A stretch of DNA of 64,000 nucleotides from Clostridiales bacterium UBA4039 (GTDB lineage: Bacteria; Bacillota; Clostridia; Lachnospirales; Vallitaleaceae), in NCBI GenBank assembly GCA_002382805.1, contig DGAD01000043.1:94778-158777 (forward strand), written 5' to 3'. Under the pieces are notes generated by a model. The model was not told the DNA's origin and did not search any database. It was given only the letters and a program-made list of their open reading frames with translations. The first letter of the stretch is position 1; every line of letters begins with the position of its first letter. Below are positions 1 through 14,720 of the stretch, piece by piece. The position numbers and the translations under genes were made by a program.

Positions 1-2
1 CA

Positions 3-1250
3 GCGTTAGTGCCTCATTTAACCGTGGCAGAAAATATAATGATGGATGAAATTATTAGTCCGCAACAAAAAACAATGCTGAATTGGAAAAAAATCAAAAA
101 ACAAGCACGAAAAGAATTGGAAGCTTTAGGGTTAGATATTGATGTTAACAAATTGGTAAGTGACTTAACATTATCTCAAAAGCAGATGGTACTGATTGGA
201 CGTGCGGTTTATCAAAAAGCGAAGTTTTTAATCTTGGATGAACCAACAGCTCCACTTAGTTTAGAAGAAACAGAAAAACTATTTAAAATTGTGTCGAAGC
301 TAAAACAAGATGGAATGAGCATTATATTTATAAGTCATCGTTTAGATGAAGTATTTCAAATAAGTGAAAAAATTACGGTGCTAAGAGACGGTCAATATGT
401 GGGAACATATAATGCCTCTGAGACATGCATTGATAATATAGTAGAAAAAATGTTGGGGCGTAAGTTGGAAAACACCTATCCCAAACATATCGGTGACATC
501 GGTAAAGAAGTTTTGAAGATACGCGATTTAACAGGGACCGGCGGAATACATCATGTGGACTTAACGTTGCACGAAGGAGAAATCATTGGTCTGGCAGGAC
601 TTGTCGGCGGTGGTAAGACAGAACTATGCAAGTTGATTTTTGGAGAAGGTAATATTACCCAAGGAACCATTGAACTCAATGCAAAACAAGTCGTTAATAA
701 AAATCCGGCGATTGCGGTTAAAAACGGATTCGCACTTGTCCCTGAAGAACGAAGAAAAGAAGGGATATTGGTTCATGAATCGATAGAAACCAATCTAACG
801 TTACCCACATTAGACAAGTATTGTAAGTATTCTTTTATGAATCGTATCAAAATGAAAAAAGTGTCAAAAGATAATATTGAAAAAGTTGGGATCAAAACAC
901 CCACAGAAAAGCAGATTGTTGCAAATCTAAGTGGTGGAAACCAACAAAAAGTTGCAATTGGAAAATGGCTGCTATCTGACGCACAAGTCTATATCTTTGA
1001 TGAGCCGACAAAAGGTGTTGATGTAGGTAGTAAAGCAGAAATATATCGGCTTATTGGTGAATTGGTTAAGGCAGGAAAAAGTGTTATCTATGCGACCTGT
1101 GAATTCCCCGAAATCCTAGGGTTAACCGATCGAACCTATGTTATGTATAACGGAACCATAGCCAAAGAGCTTATTACCAAAGAAACAGATGAAGAAGAAT
1201 TATTATTATACTCTACCGGAGGTGGCCAAAATGTTAAAAAACGAGCCTAA
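3..1250 (+). CDS. Sugar ABC importer ATPase, CUT2 type (5' end outside window)
   Basis: Two-domain ATPase of the ribose/rhamnose/AI-2 class of sugar importers; it powers uptake through the permease encoded next. The visible part begins inside nucleotide-binding domain 1: its Walker A lies before the window, but the signature region (LTLSQKQ) and Walker B (FLILDEPTA) are seen. Domain 2 has Walker A (GGGKTE), signature (NLSGGNQQ) and Walker B (YIFDEPTKGVD). Family members are about 500 residues, so roughly 85-90 are missing. The frame is open back to base 3, so the GTG at 9 is not the true start. The stop overlaps the permease start by 20 bases. Being directly upstream of mtnK/mtnA, it probably imports a 5-substituted ribose; that specificity is inferred. 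Confidence 0.9.
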   Translation, partial: ALVPHLTVAENIMMDEIISPQQKTMLNWKKIKKQARKELEALGLDIDVNKLVSDLTLSQKQMVLIGRAVYQKAKFLILDEPTAPLSLEETEKLFKIVSKLKQDGMSIIFISHRLDEVFQISEKITVLRDGQYVGTYNASETCIDNIVEKMLGRKLENTYPKHIGDIGKEVLKIRDLTGTGGIHHVDLTLHEGEIIGLAGLVGGGKTELCKLIFGEGNITQGTIELNAKQVVNKNPAIAVKNGFALVPEERRKEGILVHESIETNLTLPTLDKYCKYSFMNRIKMKKVSKDNIEKVGIKTPTEKQIVANLSGGNQQKVAIGKWLLSDAQVYIFDEPTKGVDVGSKAEIYRLIGELVKAGKSVIYATCEFPEILGLTDRTYVMYNGTIAKELITKETDEEELLLYSTGGGQNVKKRA

Positions 1251-2232
1251 ACAAAAAATAGATTTATTTCAGTTCTTTTATAAGTACGGCACGATTTTAG
1301 TAACTGTATTAGCCGTATTGTTCTTTACAATTCGATTAGAAAATTTTATGAACTTCAATAATATCACCAATATTTTTCGATCCGTATCTATTGTAGGATT
1401 AATCGCCCTTGCGATTACCATGGCACTGACTGTTGATGGATTTGATTTATCTGTAGGTGCTGTGGCTGGATTTGCATCTGTAATCGCTGCAAAAATCATG
1501 GTTATCTGGGAAATGAACCCTGTGTGGGCGATTGCAATTCCCTTAGTCGTAGGTGTCTTGGTAGGTATGGTGAATGCCTTCTTAATTATCAAAGTAGGTA
1601 TTTCAGACATGTTGACAACACTCTCGATGATGTTTTTATTAACAGGAATCTCTATTACATTCCAAAATGGTACGGCGATATACAACTACATGCCACTACC
1701 AGATAATGCAGGTATTGCACCTGGGATGATGCATCCGGCGTATCTGTTTATTGGACAAGGCAAGATATTTGGCATTCCGTTTCCGGTTATTTTGATGCTC
1801 ACAGTGGTCATCATTGTACACATCTTTTTAAACTATACAAAATACGGACGTTACCTATATATGGTTGGAGGTAATGAAGAAGCGGCAAAACTTTCTGGAA
1901 TCCCTACCAAAAAATATCGATTATTAGCTTACATCTTTTCAGGGTTCATTGCAGCGCTTGGTGGTTTGGTTTTAGGTGCCAGATTAGGTTCAGGTGAAGT
2001 TGATGCAGGTGGATCATACTTGATGGATGCAGTAGCTGCAGCCTTTATTGGATTCTCAGTCTTAGGAATTGGAAAAGCCAATGCCTTTGGAACTTTACTT
2101 GGAGCGCTTTTGATGGGAATCTTGTTAAATGGATTGATTATGATGGACTTCCCATACTATTCCCAAGATATTGTTAAAGGAATCGTATTAATTATAGCCT
2201 TAGGATTAACCTATTATAAGAAGAAAGATTAA
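1231..2232 (+). CDS. Sugar ABC importer permease, CUT2 type
   Basis: Inner-membrane channel subunit of a CUT2 (BPD_transp_2) sugar importer, about 333 residues with some eight to ten hydrophobic segments. Family hallmarks are the early GFDLSVGAVAGF motif and the late GFSVLGIGKANAFGTLLGA motif. I chose ATG 1231 because GGAGGTGG (1218-1225) sits just before it; an in-frame ATG at 1189 would add 14 residues with no ribosome site. It overlaps the ATPase gene, so the two are translationally coupled, and it lies 20 bases before mtnK. Substrate is unknown from sequence alone; the operon suggests 5-deoxyribose or methylthioribose. Confidence 0.9.
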   Translation: MLKNEPKQKIDLFQFFYKYGTILVTVLAVLFFTIRLENFMNFNNITNIFRSVSIVGLIALAITMALTVDGFDLSVGAVAGFASVIAAKIMVIWEMNPVWAIAIPLVVGVLVGMVNAFLIIKVGISDMLTTLSMMFLLTGISITFQNGTAIYNYMPLPDNAGIAPGMMHPAYLFIGQGKIFGIPFPVILMLTVVIIVHIFLNYTKYGRYLYMVGGNEEAAKLSGIPTKKYRLLAYIFSGFIAALGGLVLGARLGSGEVDAGGSYLMDAVAAAFIGFSVLGIGKANAFGTLLGALLMGILLNGLIMMDFPYYSQDIVKGIVLIIALGLTYYKKKD

Positions 2233-2251
2233 TTTTGAGAGGAGACCGACG

Positions 2252-3457
2252 ATGAGTAAATACGTAGAATTAAATGAAAAAACAGTCATTGATTATGTTA
2301 ACAGCAAGATGGAGTTCTTTCGACCGGATGCCGAGTATGTGTGCAATGAAATTGGAGATGGAAACTTAAACCTCGTCTTTCGCGTCAAAGATACGAAAAA
2401 CAATAAAAGCGTTATTGTTAAGCAAGCCCTTCCTTATGTAAGAGCGGCGGGAGAAGATTGGCCTCTTGATATTGGCCGTGGTGAAATTGAATCGCATATC
2501 CTAGATATTGAATATAAACTGACCGATGGTTTAGTGCCAAAAGTCTACTTCTATGATACAGATATGTATTGTATGGCGATGGAAGATTTAGATAACTACA
2601 TTATCATGCGATATGGATTGCTTGACTATATCCAATATCCAGAATTTGCGGATCAAATCAGTGACTTTTTAGTCAAAACACTTTTGCTTACATCCGATGT
2701 TGTGATGGAGCATAAAGAGAAAAAAGAAAGTGTCAAAGAATTTATCAATCCGGAGTTATGTGAAATAACAGAAGATTTAGTTTATACAGAACCATTTCAT
2801 ATTGGAGCACGTAATAATATGGAAGAAGCGATTGTTAAGTTCCATCAAGAAGAGATTGTAGATGACGAAGAATTGGCACGAGAAGTGGCTAAGTTAAAAT
2901 TTGACTTTATGAATAATGCCCAAGCACTTTTACACGGAGACTTGCACACAGGAAGTATCTTTGTCAATCAAGATTCAACAAAAGTTATCGACCCTGAGTT
3001 TGCTTTTTATGGTCCGATGGCCTATGACATTGGTGCATTAATCGCCAACTTGATTATGAACTATATATCAACAAAAGCATCTCTTGAAGAGGGCGAGCTT
3101 CGCCAAAAACATGAGGCGTTTTTATTGGATGCCATCCGTGAAGTCATCGATCAGTTCAAAGCAAAATCCTTAGAAATATGGGATGAAGTTGTGACGGATA
3201 AAATGGCAAAAGCAAAAGGGTTCAAAGAATACTATATCAATGATGTACTTGTTAACACTGCAGGAGTGACAGGGTGCGAGATGATTCGTCGAACAGTAGG
3301 ATTTGCCCATGTTAAAGACTTAGACGGTATTGCAGATGATACAAAGCGCATCAAAGCCAAAAAAGATAACATGCATTTGGCAAAAGTGCTGATAAAAAAT
3401 AGAGCAGAAATAGTCACTGGCGAAGAATATCTTCGTTTGATTGAAAAATATTTATAG
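2252..3457 (+). CDS. mtnK: S-methyl-5-thioribose kinase (probably also 5-deoxyribose kinase)
   Basis: Cytoplasmic ATP-dependent kinase placing phosphate on C1 of 5-methylthioribose; homologues in the dual DHAP salvage route also use 5-deoxyribose. The 401 residues match MtnK in length. The choline-kinase-like fold shows an N-terminal glycine loop (EIGDGNLNLVFRV, 33-45), the catalytic HGDLH motif (228-232) and the metal-binding IDPEF segment (246-250). The start is set by GAGGAGA (2238-2244). It is followed after 11 bases by mtnA. None of the remaining universal methionine-salvage genes (mtnB, C, D, E, W) is in the window, which argues for a carbon-use or disposal role ending at the aldolase rather than methionine regeneration. 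Confidence 0.93.
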   Translation: MSKYVELNEKTVIDYVNSKMEFFRPDAEYVCNEIGDGNLNLVFRVKDTKNNKSVIVKQALPYVRAAGEDWPLDIGRGEIESHILDIEYKLTDGLVPKVYFYDTDMYCMAMEDLDNYIIMRYGLLDYIQYPEFADQISDFLVKTLLLTSDVVMEHKEKKESVKEFINPELCEITEDLVYTEPFHIGARNNMEEAIVKFHQEEIVDDEELAREVAKLKFDFMNNAQALLHGDLHTGSIFVNQDSTKVIDPEFAFYGPMAYDIGALIANLIMNYISTKASLEEGELRQKHEAFLLDAIREVIDQFKAKSLEIWDEVVTDKMAKAKGFKEYYINDVLVNTAGVTGCEMIRRTVGFAHVKDLDGIADDTKRIKAKKDNMHLAKVLIKNRAEIVTGEEYLRLIEKYL

Positions 3458-3468
3458 GAGATGATGAA

Positions 3469-4524
3469 ATGATTACAACAGTTATTCCAGCAAAATTAAA
3501 CGAAGATAAGACAAAATTAGAACTTATTGATCAAACGTTATTACCTAATGAGGAAGTGTTCCTCTATTTAGACCAACGGGAAAAGATTTTTGAAGCGATT
3601 AAGATGTTACGCGTTCGTGGCGCTCCAGCAATTGGAGTGGCCGCAGCATATGGATTATATGTATGCATGAATAAGATGGAAACACAAGATTTTGAGGCGT
3701 TTAAAAAAGAATTCACAGAGACAAAGGATTATCTTGCCACCAGTCGACCAACCGCAGTAAATCTATTCTGGGCACTAGATCGCATGCAAGACCGCTTTGA
3801 AAAAGAAGAGGCAAAAGGTGCAACGATCGAACAAATGAAAAAAGCGCTCTTAGATGAAAGCGAAAAAGTCTTCGAAGAAGACCAAGCCATGGGCAAAGCC
3901 ATTGGAGAATATGGATTAGAACTACTAAAACCAGGCATGGGTCTTTTAACACATTGTAATGCAGGTGGAATCGCAACATCGGGTATCGGAACAGCATTAG
4001 CACCGATGTATTTGGGTCATGAACAAGGATATAACTTTAAAGTGTATGCAGATGAGACAAGACCTTTGCTTCAAGGTTCCAGATTAACAGCATATGAACT
4101 ATATAAAGCCGGATTAGACGTAACGGTTATCTGTGATAACATGGCATCCCTTGTTATGAAAGAAGGAAAAATAGACGCCGTGCTTGTAGGCTGTGATCGA
4201 ATAGCAGCCAATGGAGATGCTGCGAACAAGATAGGTACATCAGGAGTTGCAATCCTCGCCAAAGAATATGGAATTCCAATGTATATCCTTGGACCAACAT
4301 CAACCATTGACATGAATACTGCAACAGGACAAGACATTGAGATTGAGCTTCGTGATGAAGAAGAAATCGGCAATGGATTTGGCCGAAGAACAGCTCCAAA
4401 AGAAGTCAAAGCCTATAACCCTGCTTTTGATGTAACTGATGCAAAGTACATCACCGCTATTATAACAGAGAAGGGAATTGTTCGTCCACCTTACAAGGAG
4501 AACTTGAAGAAATTGTTTGAATAG
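3469..4524 (+). CDS. mtnA: S-methyl-5-thioribose-1-phosphate isomerase
   Basis: Aldose-ketose isomerase converting methylthioribose-1-phosphate (or 5-deoxyribose-1-phosphate) to the ribulose-1-phosphate form. At 351 residues it is family length. It has the RVRGAPAIGVAAAYG motif (48-62), the catalytic cysteine in HCNAGGIATSG (Cys163) and the catalytic aspartate in GCDRIAANGD (Asp243), equivalent to Cys160/Asp240 of the Bacillus enzyme. The related eIF2B-like proteins lack this Cys/Asp pair, so true MtnA is well supported. Ribosome site is GGAGATG just before the start. Only 9 bases separate its stop from the aldolase start. Confidence 0.93.
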   Translation: MITTVIPAKLNEDKTKLELIDQTLLPNEEVFLYLDQREKIFEAIKMLRVRGAPAIGVAAAYGLYVCMNKMETQDFEAFKKEFTETKDYLATSRPTAVNLFWALDRMQDRFEKEEAKGATIEQMKKALLDESEKVFEEDQAMGKAIGEYGLELLKPGMGLLTHCNAGGIATSGIGTALAPMYLGHEQGYNFKVYADETRPLLQGSRLTAYELYKAGLDVTVICDNMASLVMKEGKIDAVLVGCDRIAANGDAANKIGTSGVAILAKEYGIPMYILGPTSTIDMNTATGQDIEIELRDEEEIGNGFGRRTAPKEVKAYNPAFDVTDAKYITAIITEKGIVRPPYKENLKKLFE

Positions 4525-4533
4525 GAGATGCCT

Positions 4534-5325
4534 ATGAGTACATATATGAATGAAATCAAGATTCGCAATGCGATTTGTGATGTGGGTCAAAAATTATATG
4601 ATAAAGAATTTGTGGCGGCCAATGATGGGAACATCTCAGTAAAGCTCGATGATAATACCCTCTTGGTGACACCAACAGCCGTATCAAAGGGTGGTATGAA
4701 GCCGGATGAAATCGTTAAGATGACCTTAGATGGAGAAATCTTAAGTGGAGGTAAGCCATCGTCTGAAGTCAAGATGCATATACAAGTCTATAAGACGAAC
4801 CCTGAGATTCAAGCGGTCGTTCATGCGCATCCGCCGATTTCAACAGCCTTTGCAGTGGCGCGGGTGCCCATGGAGACACCGATTCTTGCAGAAGCAGTCG
4901 TCAACTTAGGCGTGGTTCCGGTAGCTGATTTTGCGCTACCGGGTACCAAAGAGGTGCCAGAATCTATCAAACCTTATGTGCGGGATTATAATGCGGTACT
5001 TCTTGCCAACCATGGATTGTTAACATGGGGCAGAGACCTTAGAGAAGCATTTTTTAGGATGGAATCAGTGGAACATTATGGAAAAATACTTCTGTATGTA
5101 AAACAAATCGGAGATCCGAGAGAGTTTAACTGTACAGAAATTGACGCATTATTAGATATTCGTAAAAAGATTGGTGTCTCATCGGGAGGCGTACCGGCAT
5201 GTAAACCGGCATATGCCACAGAGACGGTAAAACCTGAGACAGAAGACGATGTCAAAGACTATAATGAAGTGGAATTAGCTCAGGCAATTACCAACGAAGT
5301 TATGAGACAGCTTCATAGGAGGTGA
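4534..5325 (+). CDS. Class II (fuculose-phosphate type) aldolase with C-terminal encapsulation-like tail
   Basis: Zinc-dependent class II aldolase/adducin-family enzyme, 263 residues. Visible active-site elements: ANDGNISV (29-36), PSSEVKMH with the catalytic Glu78, the HAH zinc pair (His97, His99) and ANHG (His160), matching Glu73/His92/His94/His155 of FucA. In the mtnK-mtnA context it should cleave 5-methylthioribulose- or 5-deoxyribulose-1-phosphate to DHAP plus methylthioacetaldehyde or acetaldehyde. Unlike plain FucA it has a linker (about 214-243) and a C-terminal amphipathic helix (ELAQAITNEVMRQL), typical of BMC cargo targeting. Start ATG 4534 is preferred over 4528 because AGGAG (4523-4527) touches the earlier one. 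It could also act on rhamnulose- or fuculose-1-phosphate. Confidence 0.88.
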   Translation: MSTYMNEIKIRNAICDVGQKLYDKEFVAANDGNISVKLDDNTLLVTPTAVSKGGMKPDEIVKMTLDGEILSGGKPSSEVKMHIQVYKTNPEIQAVVHAHPPISTAFAVARVPMETPILAEAVVNLGVVPVADFALPGTKEVPESIKPYVRDYNAVLLANHGLLTWGRDLREAFFRMESVEHYGKILLYVKQIGDPREFNCTEIDALLDIRKKIGVSSGGVPACKPAYATETVKPETEDDVKDYNEVELAQAITNEVMRQLHRR

Positions 5326-5329
5326 AAAG

Positions 5330-6775
5330 ATGCAAATTAGTGAAAAAGAAATACAGCAACTGGTCAGTCAAATTGTTCGGCAAACGATGGGGCAAGAAAA
5401 ACAAGCAATTGATGTGAGTCCATCAAGTGGAGAATATAAAGCATCACCTATTCAAGGACATCAAATCGGTGTATATGAAAAAATGGAAGATGCAATTGAA
5501 GCGGCAAAAAAAGCTAACCAACACTATAGCCAATACAGCATCAAGGATCGACAACGCTTTATCGATGGAATAAAAAAATGGACCTTAAAGGAAAAATACG
5601 ACCTAGCGAAACGGGTTGTTGAAGAAACCGGACTTGGAAACTATGAAGATAAGATCAGAAAACATGAGCTTGCAGCAAGAACACCAGGGACTGAACTCTT
5701 AGAGACCAAGGCGCAAAGCGGGGACACAGGACTTGCTATTATTGAAGAGGCGCCTTTTGGTGTCATCGGAGCAACTACACCGGTAACCAACCCTTCTGAG
5801 ACAGTCATTAGCAATACGATAGCCATGTTGGCAGCGGGAAATACAGTTGTTTTTAATGTGCATCCAAGTTCCAAAAGGGTGTGTGCATATACGGTGTCCC
5901 AGATCAATCAATTGATTGTAGAACTAGGAGGACCCAAGAACCTTATCACTATGGTCAAAGACCCAACGATGGAATCACTGACGGTACTAGCGTCTTGCCC
6001 AATGGTTAATATGCTGGTAGGAACCGGTGGTCCGGGACTGGTTAAAGCCTTATTAAAATCCGGGAAAAAAGCCATAGGAGCAGGTGCAGGTAACCCGCCG
6101 GTTGTCGTTGATGAGACGGCCAACATAAAAAAAGCGGCGATTGATATTATCACAGGACACTCTTTTGATAATAATATAGTATGTATATTGGAAAAAGAAG
6201 TGTTTGTTGTGGATGAAGTAGCCAATGAACTGATTGAAACAATGGTTCAAGAAGGAGCAATGCTTATAAAAGGTGATACGATAAAAGCTTTGCAAGAGTT
6301 GATTACATATGAAGATCAAGAAGGCGCTCATGTACGTAAAGAGTGGGTCGGCAAAGATGCTCATACATACTTAGATGCCTTGAATATATCATACGACCAA
6401 AAACCAAAGTGCATTATTTGTGAAACAACATTTGAACATCCATTTGTACAATTGGAGTTATTAATGCCGGTATTACCAATTGTACGTGTCGATAACTTTA
6501 AAAAAGGTGTCGAATACGCTGTTAAAGCAGAGCATGGCAACCGACATACAGCAATCTGCCATTCCCAAAATATCGATAACATCACCTACTATGCGAAAGC
6601 AATTAATACGACAATCTTTGTCAAAAATGCACCTTCGCTTGCAGGGATAGGTGTCGATAGCGAGTCGGTGGTTAGCTTTACTATAGCCGGACCAACCGGA
6701 GAAGGAATTACAACAGCGAAAAACTTTACAAGAGCACGTCATTGTGTCCTTGTTGATGGGTTTAGAATTATATGA
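5330..6775 (+). CDS. CoA-acylating aldehyde dehydrogenase, microcompartment cargo (PduP/EutE family)
   Basis: NAD-dependent oxidation of a short aldehyde with CoA to acyl-CoA, the signature enzyme of metabolosomes. The 481 residues show an N-terminal amphipathic helix (EKEIQQLVSQIVRQTM, 5-20), a variable linker (21-45) and the catalytic domain, with the expected cysteine in FDNNIVCILEKE (Cys285). The N-terminal helix plus linker is the usual encapsulation-peptide arrangement of PduP-type enzymes. AGGAGGTG (5318-5325) precedes ATG 5330. The stop overlaps the next shell gene (ATGA). The likely substrate is acetaldehyde (from 5-deoxyribose) or methylthioacetaldehyde; lactaldehyde is also possible. 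Confidence 0.93.
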   Translation: MQISEKEIQQLVSQIVRQTMGQEKQAIDVSPSSGEYKASPIQGHQIGVYEKMEDAIEAAKKANQHYSQYSIKDRQRFIDGIKKWTLKEKYDLAKRVVEETGLGNYEDKIRKHELAARTPGTELLETKAQSGDTGLAIIEEAPFGVIGATTPVTNPSETVISNTIAMLAAGNTVVFNVHPSSKRVCAYTVSQINQLIVELGGPKNLITMVKDPTMESLTVLASCPMVNMLVGTGGPGLVKALLKSGKKAIGAGAGNPPVVVDETANIKKAAIDIITGHSFDNNIVCILEKEVFVVDEVANELIETMVQEGAMLIKGDTIKALQELITYEDQEGAHVRKEWVGKDAHTYLDALNISYDQKPKCIICETTFEHPFVQLELLMPVLPIVRVDNFKKGVEYAVKAEHGNRHTAICHSQNIDNITYYAKAINTTIFVKNAPSLAGIGVDSESVVSFTIAGPTGEGITTAKNFTRARHCVLVDGFRII

Positions 6776-7098
6776 TAGGCTCGTCGGTACGTGGTAATGC
6801 ACTGGGAATGCTAGAAGTTTGCGGTTATGCAACAGCTCTTATTGTTATCAGTGAAATATATCAGAATATGGACATCCATGTGGTAGCGATTAATATTAAT
6901 AAACCAGCAGTGGCGGTTCTTGAGAAGATTCCACTGCAGGCGCAGATTAAGTTTCAAGGCAGTATTGATCAAGTTCGAGCGGCAATGGAGCTGGGATATG
7001 AAGTGGCATTAAAATACAACGAACCCGAAGACATCATTCAATCAACCATCGCCAACCCGCATCCAGGAATACAAAAGTTAATAGAAAGCTCAAAATAA
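6772..7098 (+). CDS. Divergent BMC-H shell protein
   Basis: Single BMC-domain protein (about 108 residues) that would form a hexamer in the microcompartment shell. The domain starts at ALGMLEVCGYATAL, matching the beta1-alpha1 pattern of BMC-H proteins, and ends with NPHPGIQKLI, the counterpart of the PRPH tail of PduA. The pore-loop region does not carry KIGSG, so it probably has a different pore. The gene overlaps the aldehyde dehydrogenase stop by 4 bases (ATGA) and so depends on coupled translation. It could be a specialised cofactor or metabolite pore. Its identity as a BMC domain rests on position and pattern and is less certain than the two PduA-like neighbours. Confidence 0.8.
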   Translation: MIGSSVRGNALGMLEVCGYATALIVISEIYQNMDIHVVAININKPAVAVLEKIPLQAQIKFQGSIDQVRAAMELGYEVALKYNEPEDIIQSTIANPHPGIQKLIESSK

Positions 7099-7124
7099 TC
7101 AATGAGTGAATGGAGGAAAAATTG

Positions 7125-7400
7125 ATGGGAAGTTCAATAGGATTTATAGAAACCAGAGGTCTTACAGCAGCATTAGAAGCGGCCGATAACATGTTAAAAA
7201 CAGCACAAGTTGAACTTGTAGGAACAGAAAAAATCGGATCCGGATTAATTACAGTTGTTGTGAAAGGAGAAGTAGGCGCGGTAAAAGCGGCAACAGAAGC
7301 AGGAGCGGATACGGCAAGTCGATTAGGTGAACTCGTTGCAGTTCATGTAATTCCAAGACCTCACGATGATTTAATTAAAATTTTGCCGGTGCTGAAATAA
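7125..7400 (+). CDS. BMC-H shell protein, PduA/PduJ-like (copy 1)
   Basis: Canonical hexamer-forming BMC shell protein, 91 residues. It has the [19 protein letters not shown] opening, the pore motif KIGSG, the [11 protein letters not shown] helix and the VHVIPRPH ending seen in PduA, PduJ and EutM. Start ATG 7125 is chosen because GGAGG (7112-7116) lies just upstream; an ATG at 7110 overlaps that ribosome site. A close paralogue follows at 7745, with one other BMC gene between. It probably forms the bulk of the facets and lets the small aldolase substrate or product cross. Confidence 0.95.
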
Positions 7401-7403
7401 TAT

Positions 7404-7682
7404 ATGGCGATAGGGATTATAGAGATCCAAAACCTTGTTAATGGATACTTAGCAAGTGATTTGATTATGAAAATGGTTAATTGTGACATCATTCATCATA
7501 AGAAAGCATTGGGTGGACGATTAATCACCATTGTCTTTGAAGGCAGTGTCTCTGATCTAAACCTTGCTATGGATGAAATAAAAAAGACGTATCAAGAGAC
7601 AACGTTATTGAAAGTGGCTGAAGTCATTGCGAATCCGCCAGATGCATTAATGAAGTATTTTGAAAAAGGAGTCTTTCAATGA
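7404..7682 (+). CDS. Divergent BMC-domain shell protein
   Basis: Small single BMC-domain protein, 92 residues. The order [21 protein letters not shown], a central loop around [17 protein letters not shown], then a helix and [15 protein letters not shown] matches the BMC fold. The usual KIGSG pore motif is replaced by a lysine/glycine-rich loop (KKALGG), so the pore should differ from the PduA-like copies. There is no clear ribosome site, only 3 bases from the previous stop, implying coupled translation. Its last codons overlap the following gene's alternative ATGA start (7679). It may be a minor facet component. Confidence 0.8.
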
Positions 7683-7744
7683 GTGAAAATACTGTAAAAA
7701 AAACAAAGCCAACAACGAAATCACCACAGGAGGTAAAAAAAATT

Positions 7745-8017
7745 ATGGGAAATGCAATTGGTTTTATAGAGACAAGAGGTCTAACGGCGGCATTAGAAGC
7801 AGCTGATAATATGCTTAAATCAGCAGAAGTTGAACTCGTAGGTATGGAAAAAATCGGCTCTGGATTAATTACTGTAACAATTCAAGGCGATGTAGGTGCG
7901 GTAAAGGCGGCTACAGAAGCAGGATCAGAAGCTGCATCCAGATTGGGAGAATTGATTGCTGTTCATGTGATTCCACGTCCACATAACAACATGGCATCAA
8001 TTTTGCCAAAAATGTAA
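7745..8017 (+). CDS. BMC-H shell protein, PduA/PduJ-like (copy 2), possible longer isoform
   Basis: Second canonical BMC-H protein, about four-fifths identical by eye to the copy at 7125, with the same [24 protein letters not shown] and VHVIPRPH elements. Two starts are possible. ATG 7745 has a strong AGGAGGT (7728-7734) and gives the normal 90-residue protein. ATG 7679 overlaps the previous stop as ATGA and adds a 22-residue hydrophilic lysine/threonine-rich N-terminal tail. I prefer 7745, but both could be used. The pair with copy 1 looks like a local duplication with one divergent shell gene between. Confidence 0.93.
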
Positions 8018-8023
8018 AAAACT

Positions 8024-8683
8024 ATGCAAGTTAGTGAACGCATGATTGCCTTAGTCACAACAAGAGTGCTTCAACAGATTACCCAAGAACAAGGGTATCA
8101 ATATGCCGTGCCTATTGGAATATCCAATCGGCACGTGCACCTAAAAAAAAGCGACGTGGAAATGTTGTTTGGCAAAGGCTATACGTTACAAAAACTCAAA
8201 GATTTAAAACAAACAGGAGAATATGCATGTCAAGAGACGGTGACGCTGATAACAGAGCGTCAAGGTAAGACATATAAGATAGACAATGTACGTATTCTTG
8301 GCCCTGAACGTGACCAAACCCAAGTTGAGATATCAGCCACCGATGCACGTCAGTTAAAGTTAAATCCACCGGTACGTAACTCCGGAAATCTAGAACGTTC
8401 TGAACCGATTACATTACAAGGTCCCCATGGTAGCGTGACAATTGAAAACGGATGCATTATTGCAACAAGACACTTGCACTTATCAACAGAAGATGCAAAA
8501 CATATGAATATAAAATCGGGTGACGAAGTATCCGTTTTACTTGGTGATGAAAAATCCGGACGTATGGATCATGTCAGTTGTAAAGTACATGAAAATTATG
8601 TATTAGAACTACATATCGACACAGATGACGGCAATGCATTTCGGGTTCAAAGTGGAGATATGGCTACGGTCTTATTACCTTAA
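8024..8683 (+). CDS. pduL: Phosphate propanoyltransferase-type acyltransferase PduL
   Basis: Converts acyl-CoA plus phosphate to acyl-phosphate, recycling CoA inside the shell. The 219 residues contain both PduL beta-barrel domains and the metal-binding histidine motifs SNRHVHL, TRHLHLS and LELHIDTDDGNA. The first about 25 residues (SERMIALVTTRVLQQIT) form an amphipathic helix absent from non-compartment PduL proteins, a likely encapsulation peptide resembling those on the aldolase and dehydrogenase of this operon. It starts 6 bases after the shell gene. No acetate kinase is in the window, so the final ATP-forming step would be encoded elsewhere. Confidence 0.95.
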   Translation: MQVSERMIALVTTRVLQQITQEQGYQYAVPIGISNRHVHLKKSDVEMLFGKGYTLQKLKDLKQTGEYACQETVTLITERQGKTYKIDNVRILGPERDQTQVEISATDARQLKLNPPVRNSGNLERSEPITLQGPHGSVTIENGCIIATRHLHLSTEDAKHMNIKSGDEVSVLLGDEKSGRMDHVSCKVHENYVLELHIDTDDGNAFRVQSGDMATVLLP

Positions 8684-8708
8684 ACAGGGGAGAGGAAGAA
8701 GGGATACA

Positions 8709-8948
8709 ATGCGCATTGGAAAAGTCGTTGGAAACATCGTATCAACCAAAAAGCATCAAACGCTCGTAGGAGCTAAGTTTATGCGAGTTGAGCTTGAGAC
8801 AAAAGAAAATATTATTGCTGTCGATCCGATTGGCGCAGGGATTGGTGATGATGTCATTATTACAGAAGGCCATAACACGATCTATGCACTAAGCAGCGAT
8901 GTCAAACAACCCGTTGATGCCATTATTATAGGTATTGTTGATGAATGA
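8709..8948 (+). CDS. EutN/CcmL-type BMC-P vertex protein
   Basis: Pentamer-forming protein that caps microcompartment vertices. The 79 residues start with MRIGKVVGNIVSTKKHQTLVGAKFMRVE and end with PVDAIIIGIVDE, both diagnostic for the EutN/CcmL family; GAGIGDDVIITEG is the conserved central turn. I chose ATG 8709; an upstream in-frame ATG at 8625 lies inside pduL and would add 28 unrelated residues. A purine-rich stretch (GAGAGGAAGAAGGG, 8690-8703) serves as ribosome site. One BMC-P gene is enough to close a shell, so the locus looks complete. Confidence 0.95.
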   Translation: MRIGKVVGNIVSTKKHQTLVGAKFMRVELETKENIIAVDPIGAGIGDDVIITEGHNTIYALSSDVKQPVDAIIIGIVDE

Positions 8949-8988
8949 TCATAGGGGTTGGATATCAAAACTAAGGTGGTGAAGAGTT

Positions 8989-9516
8989 TTGTTTAAGCAA
9001 GAAGGAGCGATTGGCATTTTAGAGTACATAACCATTCCACAAGGGATAAAAGTACTCAATGATATTATAAAGCACGTTAATTTATCACATGTTCAGGCAA
9101 AAATTTTTCCTGGATCAAAATATATGATTATCATGCAAGGGGAACATGGAAGTATCGAGTATGCAATGGAAATAGGGATGGAGCAAGAAGGCCTTGTTGA
9201 CATTGGATGGCTTGGAAAAATCCATGACCAATTAGTCCCTGTGTTTAACGAAGAACAAAGCCCGAAGCATGTAGCGGAAAATGTATTGGTTTTTCAACAA
9301 TTAAGTCATGCAAAAGCCTATGAAGAGTGCAATATGCTCTTACATGGATTTGATTTATCTGTAGTAAAATTCAAACATAACGAGGCGTTAGAAGGTAGTT
9401 CCGTAGTGATTTTATCAGGAAGCGTTGCAGCGACGCGTGCAGCCAAAGAACGTATAAAATCCGCAGAAATCATTACAAATATAGAACCCTGGATACTAGA
9501 AGAAATTGCGAGGTGA
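8989..9516 (+). CDS. Tandem-domain BMC-T shell protein (TTG start)
   Basis: Fusion of two BMC domains in about 175 residues that would form pseudohexameric trimers. Domain 1 runs from AIGILEYITIPQG (about 7-85) and domain 2 from NVLVFQQLSHAKAY (about 98-165), each with the strand-helix pattern and an EGSSVVILSGSVAATRAA-like helix. No ATG or GTG fits; TTG 8989 follows AAGGTGG (8972-8978) at proper spacing, so a TTG start is likely. BMC-T proteins usually have large gated pores for bulky cofactors or substrates such as NAD, CoA or sugar phosphates, which this compartment needs. Domain 1 diverges most from known types. Confidence 0.85.
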   Translation: MFKQEGAIGILEYITIPQGIKVLNDIIKHVNLSHVQAKIFPGSKYMIIMQGEHGSIEYAMEIGMEQEGLVDIGWLGKIHDQLVPVFNEEQSPKHVAENVLVFQQLSHAKAYEECNMLLHGFDLSVVKFKHNEALEGSSVVILSGSVAATRAAKERIKSAEIITNIEPWILEEIAR

Positions 9517-9520
9517 ATGT

Positions 9521-10588
9521 ATGGAAACGATTCGAATATTAGGCGTCGGTGACCCGGCAGTATATACATATCAAAAAAAAGCAGATACCCTTATTCAACC
9601 TATAGAAGATGCCCTTGGGATCCACATTGACTTACAAATCGTCTCTTTTGCTGATTATTATGAGACCCTAATGGATGCATTTGAACATAGTAAATATGAT
9701 ATTGTCATGGTAGCTGGTCATTTATGGTTACCTTTTTTTGTAGAACAAGGCTACGTAGAGCCAATCTGTGAAGATAAAAAACAAGCACAATTAGACGATG
9801 TCCTTGAAACGATAAAAAGTGAGATGTTCTACAAACAGAAGCAGTATCTGTATCCTTGCTTTTGTGACGGACATATTCTTGTCTATCGTAAGAATCGAAT
9901 CCATGCAGACTTTAAAGATACCGTGAGTATTATAGACGTGATGAACTATTTAAAGACCCAGACGGCGAAGAATCAGTTTGCTCTAAAGGCCCATCCGTCG
10001 GAGCTTTTCCTAGATATATTGCCATATTTTCGTGCGTTAGCCATTGAGCCCATTGATGCTATGGGTAGAGTAGAAGAAGATGGCGCAAAGATAGAGCAAG
10101 TAGTTAGCCTATATCAAAAAGCGATTAGATATTGTGAACCTCAAGTTCGAGAGTTTGGTAATGAACAGGTGTGTAGTCGTCTTCAATCAGGTGCAGTGGA
10201 TATGGCGGTTACATGGGGTGGACAATTGGGTGCAGTTATGGATGCAAGTTGTGTCGAGCCGGAACAGATGGGCTTTGCGGCACTTGAAGAATCTTGGAAT
10301 GTGACCTGGTCTTTTGGGTTAAATGCCAAGAGTAAGAAGAAGGACTTGGCTATTGAAGTAATGAAAAGGCTGACGGCAAAATCTGTGGATCAAGAAGTAG
10401 GGCGAACTTGTGGCAACCCAACAAGGCTAAGCAACTTTTTAGATGATCAAGACCGATACCCATGGTATAGTGTTGCAAAAACGATGATTGAACACGCAAA
10501 GCCTTTGCCCAGTACACCTTTTTTACCGGAAGCAATCAGTGCGTTAACCAGCGCTCTTGATTCTTACCTGCATCACGAAGGAGCGTGA
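9521..10588 (+). CDS. Solute-binding-protein-fold protein without a signal peptide
   Basis: About 355 residues resembling family 1 extracellular solute-binding proteins: beta-strand start TIRILGVGDPAVY, a YDIVMVAGHLWLPFFVEQGY hinge segment and a C-terminal PLPSTPFLPEAISAL region. ATG 9521 has GAGGTGA (9510-9516) just before it. There is no signal peptide or lipobox, so it should stay in the cytoplasm. It sits between the BMC-T gene and the alcohol dehydrogenase, far from the operon's importer genes. It might bind a pathway sugar or sugar phosphate, or be a cargo or assembly factor. No specific function is recognised; domain assignment is by pattern. Confidence 0.75.
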   Translation: METIRILGVGDPAVYTYQKKADTLIQPIEDALGIHIDLQIVSFADYYETLMDAFEHSKYDIVMVAGHLWLPFFVEQGYVEPICEDKKQAQLDDVLETIKSEMFYKQKQYLYPCFCDGHILVYRKNRIHADFKDTVSIIDVMNYLKTQTAKNQFALKAHPSELFLDILPYFRALAIEPIDAMGRVEEDGAKIEQVVSLYQKAIRYCEPQVREFGNEQVCSRLQSGAVDMAVTWGGQLGAVMDASCVEPEQMGFAALEESWNVTWSFGLNAKSKKKDLAIEVMKRLTAKSVDQEVGRTCGNPTRLSNFLDDQDRYPWYSVAKTMIEHAKPLPSTPFLPEAISALTSALDSYLHHEGA

Positions 10589-10592
10589 AAAC

Positions 10593-11717
10593 ATGCAGTT
10601 AAACCTACCAACAATTAATCTGTTTGGAGAACAAGCAATTGAACAGTTATATCATGAATTGGAAAAAAGACAGTGGAAGAGCACGTTGATTATTACCGAT
10701 GAATATATGCGCGCGAGTAAGACATTTCAACGTATTTTGCATGTGTTTTCCCGGGCAAAGATTAAATTCAAAGTCTTTGATCAAACAAGACCTGATCCAA
10801 GTATTGAACTTGTAGAGCAGGCTTGTGGGTATATTGAAGGGGCGCCGTGTGACTTTATCCTAACACTTGGTGGAGGATCAGCACATGATCTTGGAAAAGG
10901 TGTTGCCCTTTTGAGTCAGACGGATCAATCAATTAAAGCCTTTGTAGGTGTCGATAAAATCGGACACAAAGTGTTGCCGATTGTGGCGATTAATACGACT
11001 TCGGGAACAGGATCAGAAGTGACACGCTTTGCCATTATCTCTGATGTCGAGGAAAAGGTTAAGCTAGCGATTATTGATGATGCCTTGATTCCGGCAGTTT
11101 CAGTTAACGATACACAAGCGCTTTTATCGATGCCGCCATCCTTAACAGGTGCGACAGGGATGGATGCGCTTACCCATGCGATTGAAGCGTACTTTTCAGT
11201 TGATGCCAATGCGTTAACCAATGCCTATGCGGTTAAGGCGATGGAACTTATTGGTGAGAACTTAATCAACGCTTATATGGATGGAACCAATGTCTTGGCT
11301 AGAGAAAACATGGCACAAGCCCAGTTTATGGCGGGTGTAGCTTTTTCCAACGCATCGTTGGGGTATGTTCATGCGATTGCCCATCAGCTTGGCGGACGTT
11401 ACCACTTGCCACATGGACTGTGTAATGCAGTGCTACTACCGATAGTCATTGATGGTTTAGTAAAAAAGGATAGAAAAATACGATTTGATGCAATTGGAAG
11501 AGCGCTTAAAGCGCCAATATCAAGCTATGGAGTTATTGGGAAAATTAAGCAAATGAATAAAAAGTTAAACATACCGGATTCGTTATCGAAGCTTGGTGTA
11601 GTAAAAGAGGACTTGAATCTAATCGCAGAAAAAGCATTAGAAGATCCGTGTCGACTCACAAGCCCGGTTCAATTTAGTCAAGATGAACTTGTTGCATTAC
11701 TGATGAAAGGACTATAG
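10593..11717 (+). CDS. Iron-containing alcohol dehydrogenase
   Basis: Group III NAD(P)-dependent alcohol dehydrogenase, 374 residues. It has the nucleotide motif LGGGSAHDLGKG, the NTTSGTGSEVT segment, the metal-site motif GMDALTHAIEAY and the HQLGGRYHLPHGLCNAVLLP region with metal-binding histidines. ATG 10593 is preceded by GAAGGAG (10577-10583); an earlier TTG at 10557 lies inside the previous gene. In the compartment pathway it would reduce part of the aldehyde to the alcohol (ethanol from acetaldehyde), regenerating the NAD used by the aldehyde dehydrogenase. This redox pair is standard for metabolosomes. Confidence 0.93.
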   Translation: MQLNLPTINLFGEQAIEQLYHELEKRQWKSTLIITDEYMRASKTFQRILHVFSRAKIKFKVFDQTRPDPSIELVEQACGYIEGAPCDFILTLGGGSAHDLGKGVALLSQTDQSIKAFVGVDKIGHKVLPIVAINTTSGTGSEVTRFAIISDVEEKVKLAIIDDALIPAVSVNDTQALLSMPPSLTGATGMDALTHAIEAYFSVDANALTNAYAVKAMELIGENLINAYMDGTNVLARENMAQAQFMAGVAFSNASLGYVHAIAHQLGGRYHLPHGLCNAVLLPIVIDGLVKKDRKIRFDAIGRALKAPISSYGVIGKIKQMNKKLNIPDSLSKLGVVKEDLNLIAEKALEDPCRLTSPVQFSQDELVALLMKGL

Positions 11718-11728
11718 GAGGTGTCACT

Positions 11729-13066
11729 ATGAAAACGATAATTATTGGAGGCGTTGCGGCAGGAATGAGTGCTGCAAGTAAGATACGTCGAATGCGCTAC
11801 GACTCAGAAGTCGTCGTATATGAACGTGGAGGCACTCTTTCCTATGGTGCATGTGGATTACCCTATTTTGTTGGCGATGAAATTGTAGACTCCAATAAAA
11901 TGATTATACGTACAAAGCCCCAATTTGAAAAAATGGGCATGGATATTCATCTATACCATGAAGTCATTCGTGTGGATGATAAAGCGAAAAAAATTACGGT
12001 AAAAAATCTAACAACGGGAGCTGTTTTTGAAGATAATTTTGATAAACTGCTCATAGCCTCTGGTGCCAGTCCGATTATCCCGGATTGGGAAGGAACAGAT
12101 CACCCGGTGGTTAAGTCGCTATCAACGATTGATGATGGTCAAGTAATTAAGAACATTATAAAAGAAAATAACGTAAAAAATGTTGTTATCATAGGCGCTG
12201 GATTTATAGGTGTTGAACTAGTGGAAGCCGCGTTGGGATTAGAAAAAAATGTCACGTTGATTGAATTTAAAAATCAGATTTTACCGCATTTAGATAAAGA
12301 AATGGCCTTTGAACTTGAGGGAGAACTCAAAAAACAAGGGGCATGCGTTCGATGTAATGAGCGTGTAGAACGACTAGAACCTATCAATGAGCAACAGGTG
12401 TATGTACATACCGATAAAAATCAATATATGGCAGACTTGGTTTTAGTCTGTGTTGGGGTACGCCCAAATACGAGCTTTTTGGAAAATACAAGTGTCGAGC
12501 GTGCGCGTAATGGAGCTGTCATTATAACCCCGGAGATGAAAACCAATGTATCCGATATTTTTGCAGCGGGAGACTGTGCAACAATTTATCATCAAGTCAA
12601 AAAGCATGGTAACAATTATATACCCCTTGGAACCAATGCCAATAAACAAGGAAAAATGGCTGGCGCTATCATCTGTGGAGAGAAAGCGAGCTTTACTCAA
12701 GCATTAGGTACATCGATGATTAAAGTGTGCGATATGGAAGGAGCCAAGACGGGACTGTCGGAGGCAGAAGCCATTATGGAGAACTTTGACTATAAAACGG
12801 TGACCATTCAGGCGTTAAACCATGCGCCGTACTATCCGAATCCGCAGCCAATCAAGATTAAATTAGTGGTAGATGCCAAGTCACGGGCGATTCTTGGGGC
12901 GCAAGCCGTAGGTTATGCAGGAACGGCGCTTAGAATCAACACTTTTGCCTTAGCTATTCATACAAAAATTCCTGTCGATGAGATGGGCTGGGTTGATTTT
13001 GGTTATGCACCACCATTTGCAGAAGTTTGGGATGCGATGCATGTTGCCTGCAATGCCATGAAATAG
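11729..13066 (+). CDS. FAD-dependent CoA-disulfide reductase / NADH oxidase-like protein
   Basis: Two-dinucleotide-binding flavoprotein, 445 residues. It shows the FAD motif GGVAAGMSAASKIRR (8-22), the single redox cysteine in SYGACGLPYF (Cys42), the NAD motif IIGAGFIGVELVEAA and the FAD motif FAAGDCATIYH. The single-cysteine active site is shared by CoA-disulfide reductases and NADH oxidases/peroxidases. In a CoA-consuming compartment operon a CoA-disulfide reductase, keeping CoA reduced, is the attractive reading; oxidation of NADH with oxygen is an alternative. Ribosome site AGGAGGTG precedes ATG 11729. Confidence 0.88.
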   Translation: MKTIIIGGVAAGMSAASKIRRMRYDSEVVVYERGGTLSYGACGLPYFVGDEIVDSNKMIIRTKPQFEKMGMDIHLYHEVIRVDDKAKKITVKNLTTGAVFEDNFDKLLIASGASPIIPDWEGTDHPVVKSLSTIDDGQVIKNIIKENNVKNVVIIGAGFIGVELVEAALGLEKNVTLIEFKNQILPHLDKEMAFELEGELKKQGACVRCNERVERLEPINEQQVYVHTDKNQYMADLVLVCVGVRPNTSFLENTSVERARNGAVIITPEMKTNVSDIFAAGDCATIYHQVKKHGNNYIPLGTNANKQGKMAGAIICGEKASFTQALGTSMIKVCDMEGAKTGLSEAEAIMENFDYKTVTIQALNHAPYYPNPQPIKIKLVVDAKSRAILGAQAVGYAGTALRINTFALAIHTKIPVDEMGWVDFGYAPPFAEVWDAMHVACNAMK

Positions 13067-13074
13067 GAGGAACT

Positions 13075-13905
13075 ATGAAAAAAATAATCTCGTGTTCAAA
13101 AGCGATTGAAACAATAGAAGACGGAAGCTGGTTAGCCATTGGCGGCAACGTATTACATCGTGCGCCTATGGGACTTGTACGCGAAGTGGTACGCCAAAAA
13201 AAAGTGTCGCTTAAATTGGTAAAAACGGCAGGAGCACATGATGTGGATGTCTTGGTGCGTGGTGGATGTGTTGCCAGTGTTGATGCAGGATTTATCAGTT
13301 ATGAAACCGAATATGGACTGGCTACTTATTATCGTAAAGCGGTTGAGAGTGGACGCGTTCAAGGCAATGAACATGCATGTTACACAGTTATTAGTGCGTT
13401 GAATGCAGCGAAGATTGGCGTGCCTTTTATGCCGGTGCGAGGCTTGCAAATTAGTGACCTCATTGAAGCGAATACTTACTTTGATAAAGTGACGGACCCT
13501 TTTAGTGGAGAAGAGATTACGGTCGTTAAAGCAATTCGTCCAGATGTTGCCATTATCCATGTTAATGCATGTGATGAAAGTGGTAATGCCATTATTGAAG
13601 GACCTAAGTTTGATGATATATTAATGTCAAGAGCGGCAAAACGCGTGATTCTATCAACAGAAAAAATAATATCTAATGCGCAGATTCGCTTAAATCAAGA
13701 TAAGGTATCGATTCCTGGATTTTTGGTGGAAGCCATTGTTTTGATGCCAAAAGCAAGTGCACCAGGGTCTTTGCCGGGACATTATGAAGTTCAAGATAAA
13801 GTTATCCGAGATTTTTTGGCGGATAAAGAAGAAAGTAGTTTTGAGGCATATTTAGACAAGTATCGTGGACAAGATCAAGGCAAAGGTGGTGGATTTTCAT
13901 GGTAA
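13075..13905 (+). CDS. CoA transferase, subunit A (glutaconate CoA-transferase-like)
   Basis: Alpha subunit of a family I heteromeric CoA transferase, about 276 residues. The N-terminal GGNVLHRAPMGLVREVVRQ and the internal HVNACDESGNAIIEGP region match the GctA-type fold. ATG 13075 follows AGGAGG (13065-13070). It overlaps the B-subunit gene by 7 bases, as expected for stoichiometric subunits. It could move CoA between the acyl-CoA made in the compartment and another acid (acetate, propionate or methylthioacetate), releasing a free acid without PduL/kinase. The acid partner cannot be read from the sequence. Confidence 0.9.
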   Translation: MKKIISCSKAIETIEDGSWLAIGGNVLHRAPMGLVREVVRQKKVSLKLVKTAGAHDVDVLVRGGCVASVDAGFISYETEYGLATYYRKAVESGRVQGNEHACYTVISALNAAKIGVPFMPVRGLQISDLIEANTYFDKVTDPFSGEEITVVKAIRPDVAIIHVNACDESGNAIIEGPKFDDILMSRAAKRVILSTEKIISNAQIRLNQDKVSIPGFLVEAIVLMPKASAPGSLPGHYEVQDKVIRDFLADKEESSFEAYLDKYRGQDQGKGGGFSW

Positions 13906-14633
13906 TAAAACAACAACAACAGATGCATCCGGCAGATATCATGGTCGTAACCATTGCGCATTTACTAAAGGATAATGAGAAAGTGTTTCACGGAGTATCT
14001 TCTCAGCTTCCGATGGTAGCCATATTATTAGCTAAGGCTATGCATGCAAAAGAACTGACTTATCTGAATATTCCAGGCGGTGTGAATCCCTTAGCACAGC
14101 AACTCTCACCTTATTCTTCAGCAGGACATGAACAATATACCCGTTCGGAAGCGATTTTTCCACTAGAAGAAATATTTGACCTGTCTATGCGAGGCGAGCT
14201 TGATGTGGCTTTTTTGTCAGGAGTACAGTTTGATGTTCATGGCAATGTCAACGCATCCGTTATCGGCGACTATCATAAACCCAAAGTTCGCCTTCCAGGT
14301 GGAGCCGGAAGTGCTGTCTTGATACCAACAGTCAAGCGTGCACTGATATGGCGTAGTAAGCATGATCCAAGAACATTTGTTGAGAAGGTGAACTTCGTGA
14401 CGACGCGTGGCAATATTGATCGGATTATCACCCCATTAGCTGTGTTTAAATTTCAAGACGGACGACTACAACTTGAGGCTATTAGCCCCTTAACAACCAT
14501 GGAAGAAGTCGTTGCGCAAACCGGTTTTAGTGTCAATACAGATAATGTTGATGTTTTGCCCATGCCGACAGCCGAAGAGATGCGTCTGATTCAAAAGATT
14601 GATAAAGACGGGGTACGATATAAGGAGTTCTAA
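13899..14633 (+). CDS. CoA transferase, subunit B (glutaconate CoA-transferase-like)
   Basis: Beta subunit partner of the preceding gene, 244 residues, with the LNIPGGVNPLAQQL, VAFLSGVQFDVHGNVNASVIGD and LPGGAGSAVLIPTVKR segments of the SugarP_isomerase/CoA_trans superfamily. It starts at ATG 13899 inside the A-subunit gene. It is the last gene of the operon: a hairpin terminator follows at 14680. Whether it has the catalytic glutamate of true CoA transferases should be checked by alignment, since I could not place it with certainty. Confidence 0.88.
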   Translation: MVIKQQQQMHPADIMVVTIAHLLKDNEKVFHGVSSQLPMVAILLAKAMHAKELTYLNIPGGVNPLAQQLSPYSSAGHEQYTRSEAIFPLEEIFDLSMRGELDVAFLSGVQFDVHGNVNASVIGDYHKPKVRLPGGAGSAVLIPTVKRALIWRSKHDPRTFVEKVNFVTTRGNIDRIITPLAVFKFQDGRLQLEAISPLTTMEEVVAQTGFSVNTDNVDVLPMPTAEEMRLIQKIDKDGVRYKEF

Positions 14634-14679: not shown

Positions 14680-14720
14680 GCTCTAGTAAAGGAAAGCAAT
14701 CCTTTGTTAGAGCTTTTTTC
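14680..14720 (+). terminator. Rho-independent terminator of the microcompartment operon
   Basis: A 14-base arm beginning GCTCTAGTAAAGGA (14680-14693) pairs with TCCTTTGTTAGAGC (14700-14713) across a 6-base loop, with one or two wobble positions, followed by TTTTTTC. It closes the 14.6-kb operon 46 bases after the last stop codon. Confidence 0.9.

Follow-up and report, generated by a model that had tools for sequence, protein, structure and literature searches.

The DNA analysed here (the window) is a stretch of 64,000 nucleotides from Clostridiales bacterium UBA4039 (contig DGAD01000043.1; G000:C44:94778-158777 in our numbering, in which positions with an L-number prefix are coordinates within separately fetched stretches, L009 being the one that spans the region upstream of the window). 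It opens with a predicted operon that joins a sugar importer, the kinase MtnK, the isomerase MtnA and a class II aldolase to the genes of a bacterial microcompartment (BMC), and it is this operon, its distribution and its probable function that are considered below.

Gene content and boundaries of the operon

All genes of the operon lie on the + strand, in the order RbsA, RbsC, MtnK, MtnA, class II aldolase, aldehyde dehydrogenase, a block of shell and PduL genes and a set of accessory genes, with an intergenic spacing that ranges from -62 to 40 bp between RbsA and the last gene. The genes that follow the aldehyde dehydrogenase encode four BMC-H-like proteins, PduL, a BMC-P and a BMC-T-like protein, a solute-binding-like protein, an Fe-type alcohol dehydrogenase, a coenzyme A (CoA)-disulfide reductase and a CoA-transferase-like pair. 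A sequence-only reading of the window had placed mtnK, mtnA, the aldolase and the BMC genes in one operon; the genes it named are confirmed, in that order, on the same strand and tightly spaced, and its gene set is extended here with the importer, a binding lipoprotein, a DeoR-type regulator, the solute-binding-like protein, the CoA-disulfide reductase and the CoA-transferase-like pair.

The importer consists of an RbsA-type sugar ABC transporter ATPase (1-1250; PF00005, 111.4 bits), whose 5' end lies upstream of the window with a start near L009:14514-14529, and an RbsC-type permease (1189-2232; PF02653, 137.9 bits). Between importer and aldolase, with gaps of 3-19 bp, are placed MtnK, a 5-methylthioribose/5-deoxyribose kinase (2252-3457; TIGR01767, 466.6 bits, cut-off 275; PDB 2olc, 301.6 bits), and MtnA, an aldose-1-phosphate isomerase of family PF01008 (3469-4524; TIGR00512, 420.3 bits, cut-off 279; PDB 1t9k, 323.8 bits). 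The class II aldolase, the signature enzyme of the operon, carries a C-terminal tail (4528-5325; PF00596, 168.6 bits) and is followed by a CoA-acylating aldehyde dehydrogenase of the PduP/EutE type (5330-6775; PRK15398, 651.5 bits, cut-off 403). The shell genes encode a divergent single-domain BMC protein (6772-7098; PF00936, 26.8 bits, cut-off 24.5), two PduA/EutM-like BMC-H proteins (7110-7400 and 7679-8017; PF00936, 99.5 and 103.8 bits, respectively) with a divergent BMC-H protein between them (7404-7682; PF00936, 42.8 bits), an EutN-type BMC-P vertex protein (8709-8948; PF03319, 80.5 bits) and a BMC-T-like protein with two BMC stretches (8989-9516; PF00936, 44.3 bits), which scores 48.8 bits with the PduT model TIGR02526, below its cut-off of 250.3. 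The phosphate acyltransferase PduL (8024-8683; PRK15070, 234.7 bits, cut-off 209) and the Fe-type alcohol dehydrogenase (10593-11717; PF00465, 145.3 bits) complete the set. At the gene level, BMC-H, BMC-T and BMC-P are thus all represented, the BMC-T call being the weakest, and the core enzymes of a metabolosome (aldehyde dehydrogenase, PduL and alcohol dehydrogenase) are all present.

Downstream, an intrinsic terminator-like site (14680-14713, + strand), made of a 14-pair stem followed by TTTTTT, lies 47 bp past the last gene and is the strongest site of the scan. The scan returned 12 terminator-like sites where 10.6 were expected from shuffles, and the weaker sites inside genes carry little meaning because this total is near expectation; promoter-like and terminator-like matches overall stand at shuffle level. 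Upstream of the window, the gene for the sugar-binding lipoprotein (L009:13256-14434) ends some 80-95 bp before RbsA, and that for the DeoR-type regulator (L009:12228-12974) precedes it by 281 bp, a gap on account of which the regulator may belong to a separate transcript. Further upstream (L009:705-12159) lies what is probably a sulfated-polysaccharide locus, with genes for a GH88-family glycosidase, three sulfatases, a lipoprotein and two transporter permeases.

Aldolase tail and distribution of the locus

In an AlphaFold2 model, the catalytic domain of the aldolase is followed by residues 215-246 without helix (confidence is lowest over 231-240) and by a helix at residues 247-264 (5266-5319, + strand) that resembles an encapsulation peptide. 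Extensions were scored as the residues after the NHG motif in aldolases that shared at least 45% identity with any of three queries, leaving aside matches below 60 bits or running off their contig; L058, from the species of the window, stands outside the count, and L050 was left out of the alignment and kept in the count. By this measure the tail is present in all 36 related aldolases whose loci have shell genes in the stretch versus 6 of the 15 whose loci lack them (Fisher p = 1.6e-6, ignoring relatedness), in three of three from loci that have aldehyde dehydrogenase and EutN genes but no BMC-H in the stretch, and in none of the 19 more distant aldolases whose loci lack shell genes. Hydrophobic-moment shuffles fail to single out many individual tails, and the case for the tail consequently rests on its length, its predicted helix and this association. 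Shell genes located elsewhere in the genome were found in 12 of 25 genomes and lack specificity: they occur in 5 of the 6 genomes whose aldolase is tailed, in 3 of the 9 whose related aldolase is untailed and in 4 of the remaining 10. This lends weak support to a role of the tail, because some of these distant genes may belong to other BMC types. We regard the tail as encapsulation-peptide-like, and targeting of the aldolase to the shell as putative.

Within the Lachnospirales, the order of the window, 21 of 295 genomes have an MtnK at threshold, and of 24 MtnK loci analysed from this order (that of the window and 23 others), 11 have shell genes in their stretches; for a 3.9% background, a rough binomial that ignores relatedness sets the chance of this at 4e-10. 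From a wider scan, 80 of 573 confirmed relatives were kept, so that its frequencies are not free of bias; 33 of these 80 have a BMC match scoring 90 bits or more, three of the 33 being already in the order set (L059, L065, L075 and L084 are records of that set, and L075 is the same record as L041). The carriers include Lacrimispora, Acetanaerobacterium, Proteocatella, Anaerocolumna, Clostridium bovifaecis, Bacillus dakarensis, Paenibacillus dendritiformis, Gracilibacillus, a Treponema and two Chloroflexota, and similar loci hence span Bacillota, Spirochaetota and Chloroflexota. Species in culture that carry the locus are Lacrimispora celerecrescens (L074), Proteocatella sphenisci, Acetanaerobacterium elongatum and, of the Bacillales, Calidifontibacillus oryziterrae. 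The gene order of the window is shared by many Lachnospirales and Bacillales loci; other Clostridia and the Treponema have different orders, several of which combine multiple EutN genes with a PduS/RnfC-like gene, and mtnK, mtnA and the aldolase remain together across families. The further mtnK-mtnA-aldolase-BMC loci that the sequence-only reading had suggested looking for are thus found in several families and phyla, and chance clustering was rejected in view of this conservation.

Other arrangements were observed as well. In Clostridium bovifaecis (L096:1-7000), a second set of genes, for an alcohol dehydrogenase, a distant aldolase, MtnA, MtnK and a permease-looking protein, lies directly upstream of the BMC version of the locus. 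DhaK-like dihydroxyacetone kinase genes occur near eight loci (L041, L044, L079, L082, L095, L102, L103 and L107), and the one tested, that of L095, falls under its cut-offs.

Substrate, mechanism and rival readings

The two nearest solved relatives of the sugar-binding lipoprotein include the 5-methylthioribose-binding protein 4RY8, the clade of the importer contains a methylthioribose-binding protein, and in Bacillus (L127) the importer-MtnK-MtnA module lies next to methionine-salvage genes. Together with the tail of the aldolase, this kinship and this context support a 5-deoxypentose metabolosome, and we propose, with a probability of roughly 0.8, that the operon serves the catabolism of 5-deoxypentoses from outside the cell (5-deoxy-D-ribose and/or 5-methylthio-D-ribose), its aldolase working within the shell. 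We infer the identity of the substrate, the encapsulation, the assembly of the shell and the fluxes along the following lines. The lipoprotein would bind the sugar and the RbsA/RbsC-type transporter would import it; MtnK would phosphorylate C1 and MtnA would convert the product to a ketose-1-phosphate, both steps being taken as cytosolic. The ketose phosphate would then pass into the shell, where the aldolase, anchored by its C-terminal peptide, would cleave it to dihydroxyacetone phosphate (DHAP) and acetaldehyde (or methylthioacetaldehyde). DHAP would exit to glycolysis, and the aldehyde would become acyl-CoA through the aldehyde dehydrogenase and acyl-phosphate through PduL, part of it being reduced by the Fe-type alcohol dehydrogenase with recycling of NAD. 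Placing the aldolase next to aldehyde-consuming enzymes would both pull an unfavourable aldol cleavage and contain a toxic aldehyde; aldol equilibria near 1e-4, in favour of the ketose phosphate, are given in PMC6079011.

This proposal retains only part of the interpretation put forward by the sequence-only reading. A metabolosome in which MtnK and MtnA work with a class II aldolase and the aldehyde is both oxidised and reduced is supported by the association of tail and shell, the kinship of the binding protein and the conserved gene set. Disposal of by-products is, on the other hand, unlikely as the main role, and catabolism of an outside sugar fits better because the module includes a dedicated importer. 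Fermentation, likewise, cannot be the only mode, since Bacillales, many of which are aerobes, also carry the locus.

Several observations weigh against a 5-deoxypentose metabolosome. Shell genes are missing from 13 of the 24 MtnK loci of the order, and the starred branches of the MtnK tree show no fewer than 14 gains or losses of shell linkage. In the labelling of that tree, short contigs account for some of the rows without BMC, and L086, L089 and L103 (whose stretches hold no BMC-H) are labelled BMC, as is the second MtnK of L096. Two shell-gene loci of Chloroflexota have a distant aldolase without tail, and the six tailed aldolases mentioned above lack shell genes in their stretch; five of those genomes have such genes elsewhere, and the sixth, L092, is devoid of them. 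Of 102 clustered loci, 7 have rhamnulokinase-like genes nearby, and one of the 7 (L075) has shell genes; of these kinase-like genes, the one tested, in L108, scores 454.9 of 527.95 bits. The aldolase itself passes none of the NCBIfam cut-offs among the models listed, the best-scoring model being that of OtnC-like decarboxylases (157 bits, cut-off 250). In the aldolase tree it groups with BMC aldolases and not with the DrdA-like clade, being 44% identical to the aldolase of a propanediol-type BMC of the same genome, which belongs to the same clade, and 29-31% identical to the soluble DrdA-like aldolases that lie beside MtnK in the same order. Against DrdA itself (6btd), which is not among the sequences of the tree, it scores 90.3 bits.

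The OtnC-like score opens the question of whether this aldolase homologue might be a decarboxylase, or else an MtnB-like dehydratase, in a compartment that does something else. The dehydratase variant, suggested by a Glu after the HxH motif, was rejected, for the same Glu is found in the aldolase of the propanediol-type BMC and, being shared with it, marks the BMC clade; we consider the whole alternative extremely improbable. An RbsA/RbsC-type importer is also what might be expected if ribose or a ribonucleoside were the substrate, with ribulose-1-phosphate cleaved to DHAP and glycolaldehyde inside a shell that contains the latter. FucA-type enzymes are able to act on D-ribulose-1-phosphate, and the ribulose-1-phosphate aldolase model scores 110 bits on the aldolase (cut-off 300). 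The ribose pathway was nonetheless rejected on the family of the kinase and the kinship of the binding protein, and it seems highly improbable. DrdK acts with near-equal efficiency on 5-deoxyribose and methylthioribose, and not on ribose (PMC6079011).

The propanediol-type BMC is a second BMC locus of the same genome (contig C54; L010, L146), with a tailed class II aldolase and a diol dehydratase. The large and medium dehydratase subunits (PduC, PduD), the reactivase PduG and PduO score over their cut-offs and the small subunit below, and the locus also has aldehyde dehydrogenase, Zn-type alcohol dehydrogenase, shell, PduL, BMC-P and PduS-like genes. It shares with the window operon the tailed class II aldolase, the aldehyde dehydrogenase (45% identical), PduL and the shell, but PduC, PduD, PduG and PduO set it apart from an operon without dehydratase, and its gene content fits the use of 6-deoxyhexoses via propanediol. 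It adjoins another RbsABC-type importer and a two-component system. Among the proteins of the window operon there is no diol dehydratase, ethanolamine lyase or glycyl-radical enzyme, the enzymes by which PDU, EUT and GRM loci are recognised.

A reading of the window operon as a PVM-like compartment for fucose or rhamnose, with mtnK and mtnA as mere neighbours devoid of any functional link, can appeal to the 44% identity between the two aldolases and to the rhamnulokinase-like genes noted above. It has to contend, however, with the fact that no 6-deoxyhexose isomerase or kinase is recognised in the operon, with the tight insertion of mtnK and mtnA between importer and aldolase, with the persistence of the trio across families and with the existence of the C54 locus, whose aldolase and diol dehydratase suit 6-deoxyhexoses better. 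On balance, this reading appears very unlikely.

Sequence does not tell 5-deoxyribose and methylthioribose apart as substrates of the proposed 5-deoxypentose metabolosome. The same compartment might be dominated by methylthioribose and serve the recovery of sulfur or methionine via methylthioacetaldehyde, the flavoprotein and the CoA-transferase-like pair processing the sulfur product. Such a role would agree with the methylthioribose-binding protein in the importer clade, with the salvage genes next to the module in Bacillus L127 and with the presence in the module of a CoA-disulfide reductase family flavoprotein (11729-13066; PRK09564, 522.7 bits, cut-off 458), which stays beside the aldolase in the Bacillus stretches L125, L126 and L128, where shell genes are lacking. 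It is nevertheless unlikely: no sulfur-recycling enzyme is recognised among the operon proteins, a separate, canonical mtnW as well as a second MtnK is present in five of nine Bacillales carriers, and the soluble pathway of E. coli operates without recycling the sulfur of methylthioadenosine (PMC10986504).

Canonical methionine salvage, in which MtnB, MtnW and MtnX accompany MtnK and MtnA, is not what the operon encodes, for a search with curated models found none of the three in it. The genome of the window has one MtnK and no match to MtnW. Among carriers, MtnW scores over its cut-off in the five Bacillales just mentioned and in none of 11 others, all three salvage-linked controls being positive, and each of those five genomes has a second MtnK, reported in pieces in two of them. 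RuBisCO-like proteins occur near importer-MtnK-MtnA genes in several stretches (L078:17887-19038, L083:12133-13335, L095:13153-14304, L103:15509-16663 and L138:2142-3287), those of L078, L095 and L138 scoring under the MtnW cut-off; transketolase-like genes lie near most of them, with domains confirmed in L103. Such loci may represent another branch of 5-deoxypentose metabolism.

The remaining accessory genes of the operon are less easily placed. The solute-binding-protein-like protein (9521-10588, + strand; PF01547, 44.7 bits) has no evident signal peptide, so that it looks cytosolic, and belongs to a conserved family with weak solved relatives only; it is found in 22 of 102 loci, three of which (L038, L047 and L072) have no shell genes in the stretch. 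The CoA-transferase-like subunits A (13075-13905, + strand; PF01144, 82.2 bits; PDB 5mzw, 133.5 bits) and B (13899-14633, + strand; PF01144, 59.6 bits) may not form a true CoA-transferase: in subunit B, 13 of 14 aligned relatives read LNIPGG and the other LNIGGG, at a position that we take to be the catalytic Glu site of glutaconate CoA-transferase.

Relation to known systems

Among open-licence PMC papers, none was found that links microcompartments to 5-deoxyribose or to the DHAP shunt, and thioribose combined with bacterial microcompartments led only to a paper on Acetobacterium woodii (PMC7593272); for methylthioribose, a review of alpha-glucan enzymes came up as well, and none of the papers listed by a wider search mentions microcompartments. 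In the A. woodii pduU-pduV2-mtnK cluster a methylthioribose kinase gene adjoins BMC genes, as in the window; the authors regard the kinase as unrelated to BMC function, and the excerpt describes no aldolase there. The same satellite pair that lies beside mtnK in A. woodii occurs in the genome of the window on contig C39 (G000:C39, L147:4555-5395), as an EutS/PduU-like shell gene (117.2 bits, cut-off 123) and an EutP/PduV gene (139.1 bits, cut-off 138.35). The SPU metabolosome is predicted to release acetaldehyde within its shell by aldol cleavage of a deoxypentose phosphate (PMC8217296), much as is proposed here, but it relies on a DeoC-type aldolase and an RpiB-type isomerase (PF01791 and PF02502) acting on 2-deoxyribose phosphate; neither is recognised in the window operon, whose aldolase and isomerase belong to PF00596 and PF01008.

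PVM-like loci have in common with the window a class II aldolase, a DeoR regulator and the shell ratio (PMC4207490, PMC8217296, PMC8156839). The PVM compartment has been shown to act on fucose and rhamnose, whereas in the window operon MtnK and MtnA take the places of the 6-deoxyhexose isomerase and kinase, none of which is recognised among its proteins, next to a methylthioribose-type importer. The published PVM-like type that is assumed to use fucose or rhamnose may in fact be this locus, which may hence be already catalogued without its function.

More tentatively, we put forward as a possibility that the operon exemplifies a widespread, functionally unrecognised metabolosome for the S-adenosylmethionine waste sugars excreted by other cells, which joins aldol cleavage with dismutation of the aldehyde in a single shell and so allows fermentation of a sugar that the soluble pathway does not let E. 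coli ferment, and that what is catalogued as the PVM-like type of the Bacillota is for the most part this organelle, wrongly attributed to fucose and rhamnose. To our knowledge, 5-deoxyribose and methylthioribose are products of S-adenosylmethionine use in all organisms, and bacteria besides E. coli also excrete them. If true, this would add a new substrate class to metabolosomes and assign a function to loci that may at present be classed as fucose/rhamnose-like or unknown; the idea is directly testable in cultured carriers such as Lacrimispora, Acetanaerobacterium and Proteocatella.

The DHAP shunt, or 5-deoxyribose disposal pathway (MtnK-MtnA-Ald2 or DrdK-DrdI-DrdA), has the same clustered kinase, isomerase and class II aldolase as the window operon, and its expected products are DHAP and acetaldehyde or methylthioacetaldehyde (PMC6079011, PMC10986504). 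Both sugars are excreted by E. coli K-12, and strain ATCC 25922, which has the soluble pathway, can grow on 5-deoxyribose when respiring but not when fermenting, a failure that the authors attribute to ATP yield and/or redox balance (PMC10986504); a 2025 paper on the same E. coli operon deals with a putative transporter and regulation and makes no mention of microcompartments (PMC12632272). A shell that captures acyl-phosphate and recycles NAD could help the fermentation of 5-deoxyribose, and the broader possibility raised above would offer a reason why the soluble shunt fails in E. coli fermentation while anaerobes could succeed. Published versions of the shunt are soluble, whereas the aldolase of the window is tailed, belongs to the BMC clade and is followed by shell, aldehyde dehydrogenase and PduL genes. 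Judged by its genes, the window operon works like the DHAP shunt without being a member of it by descent of its aldolase.

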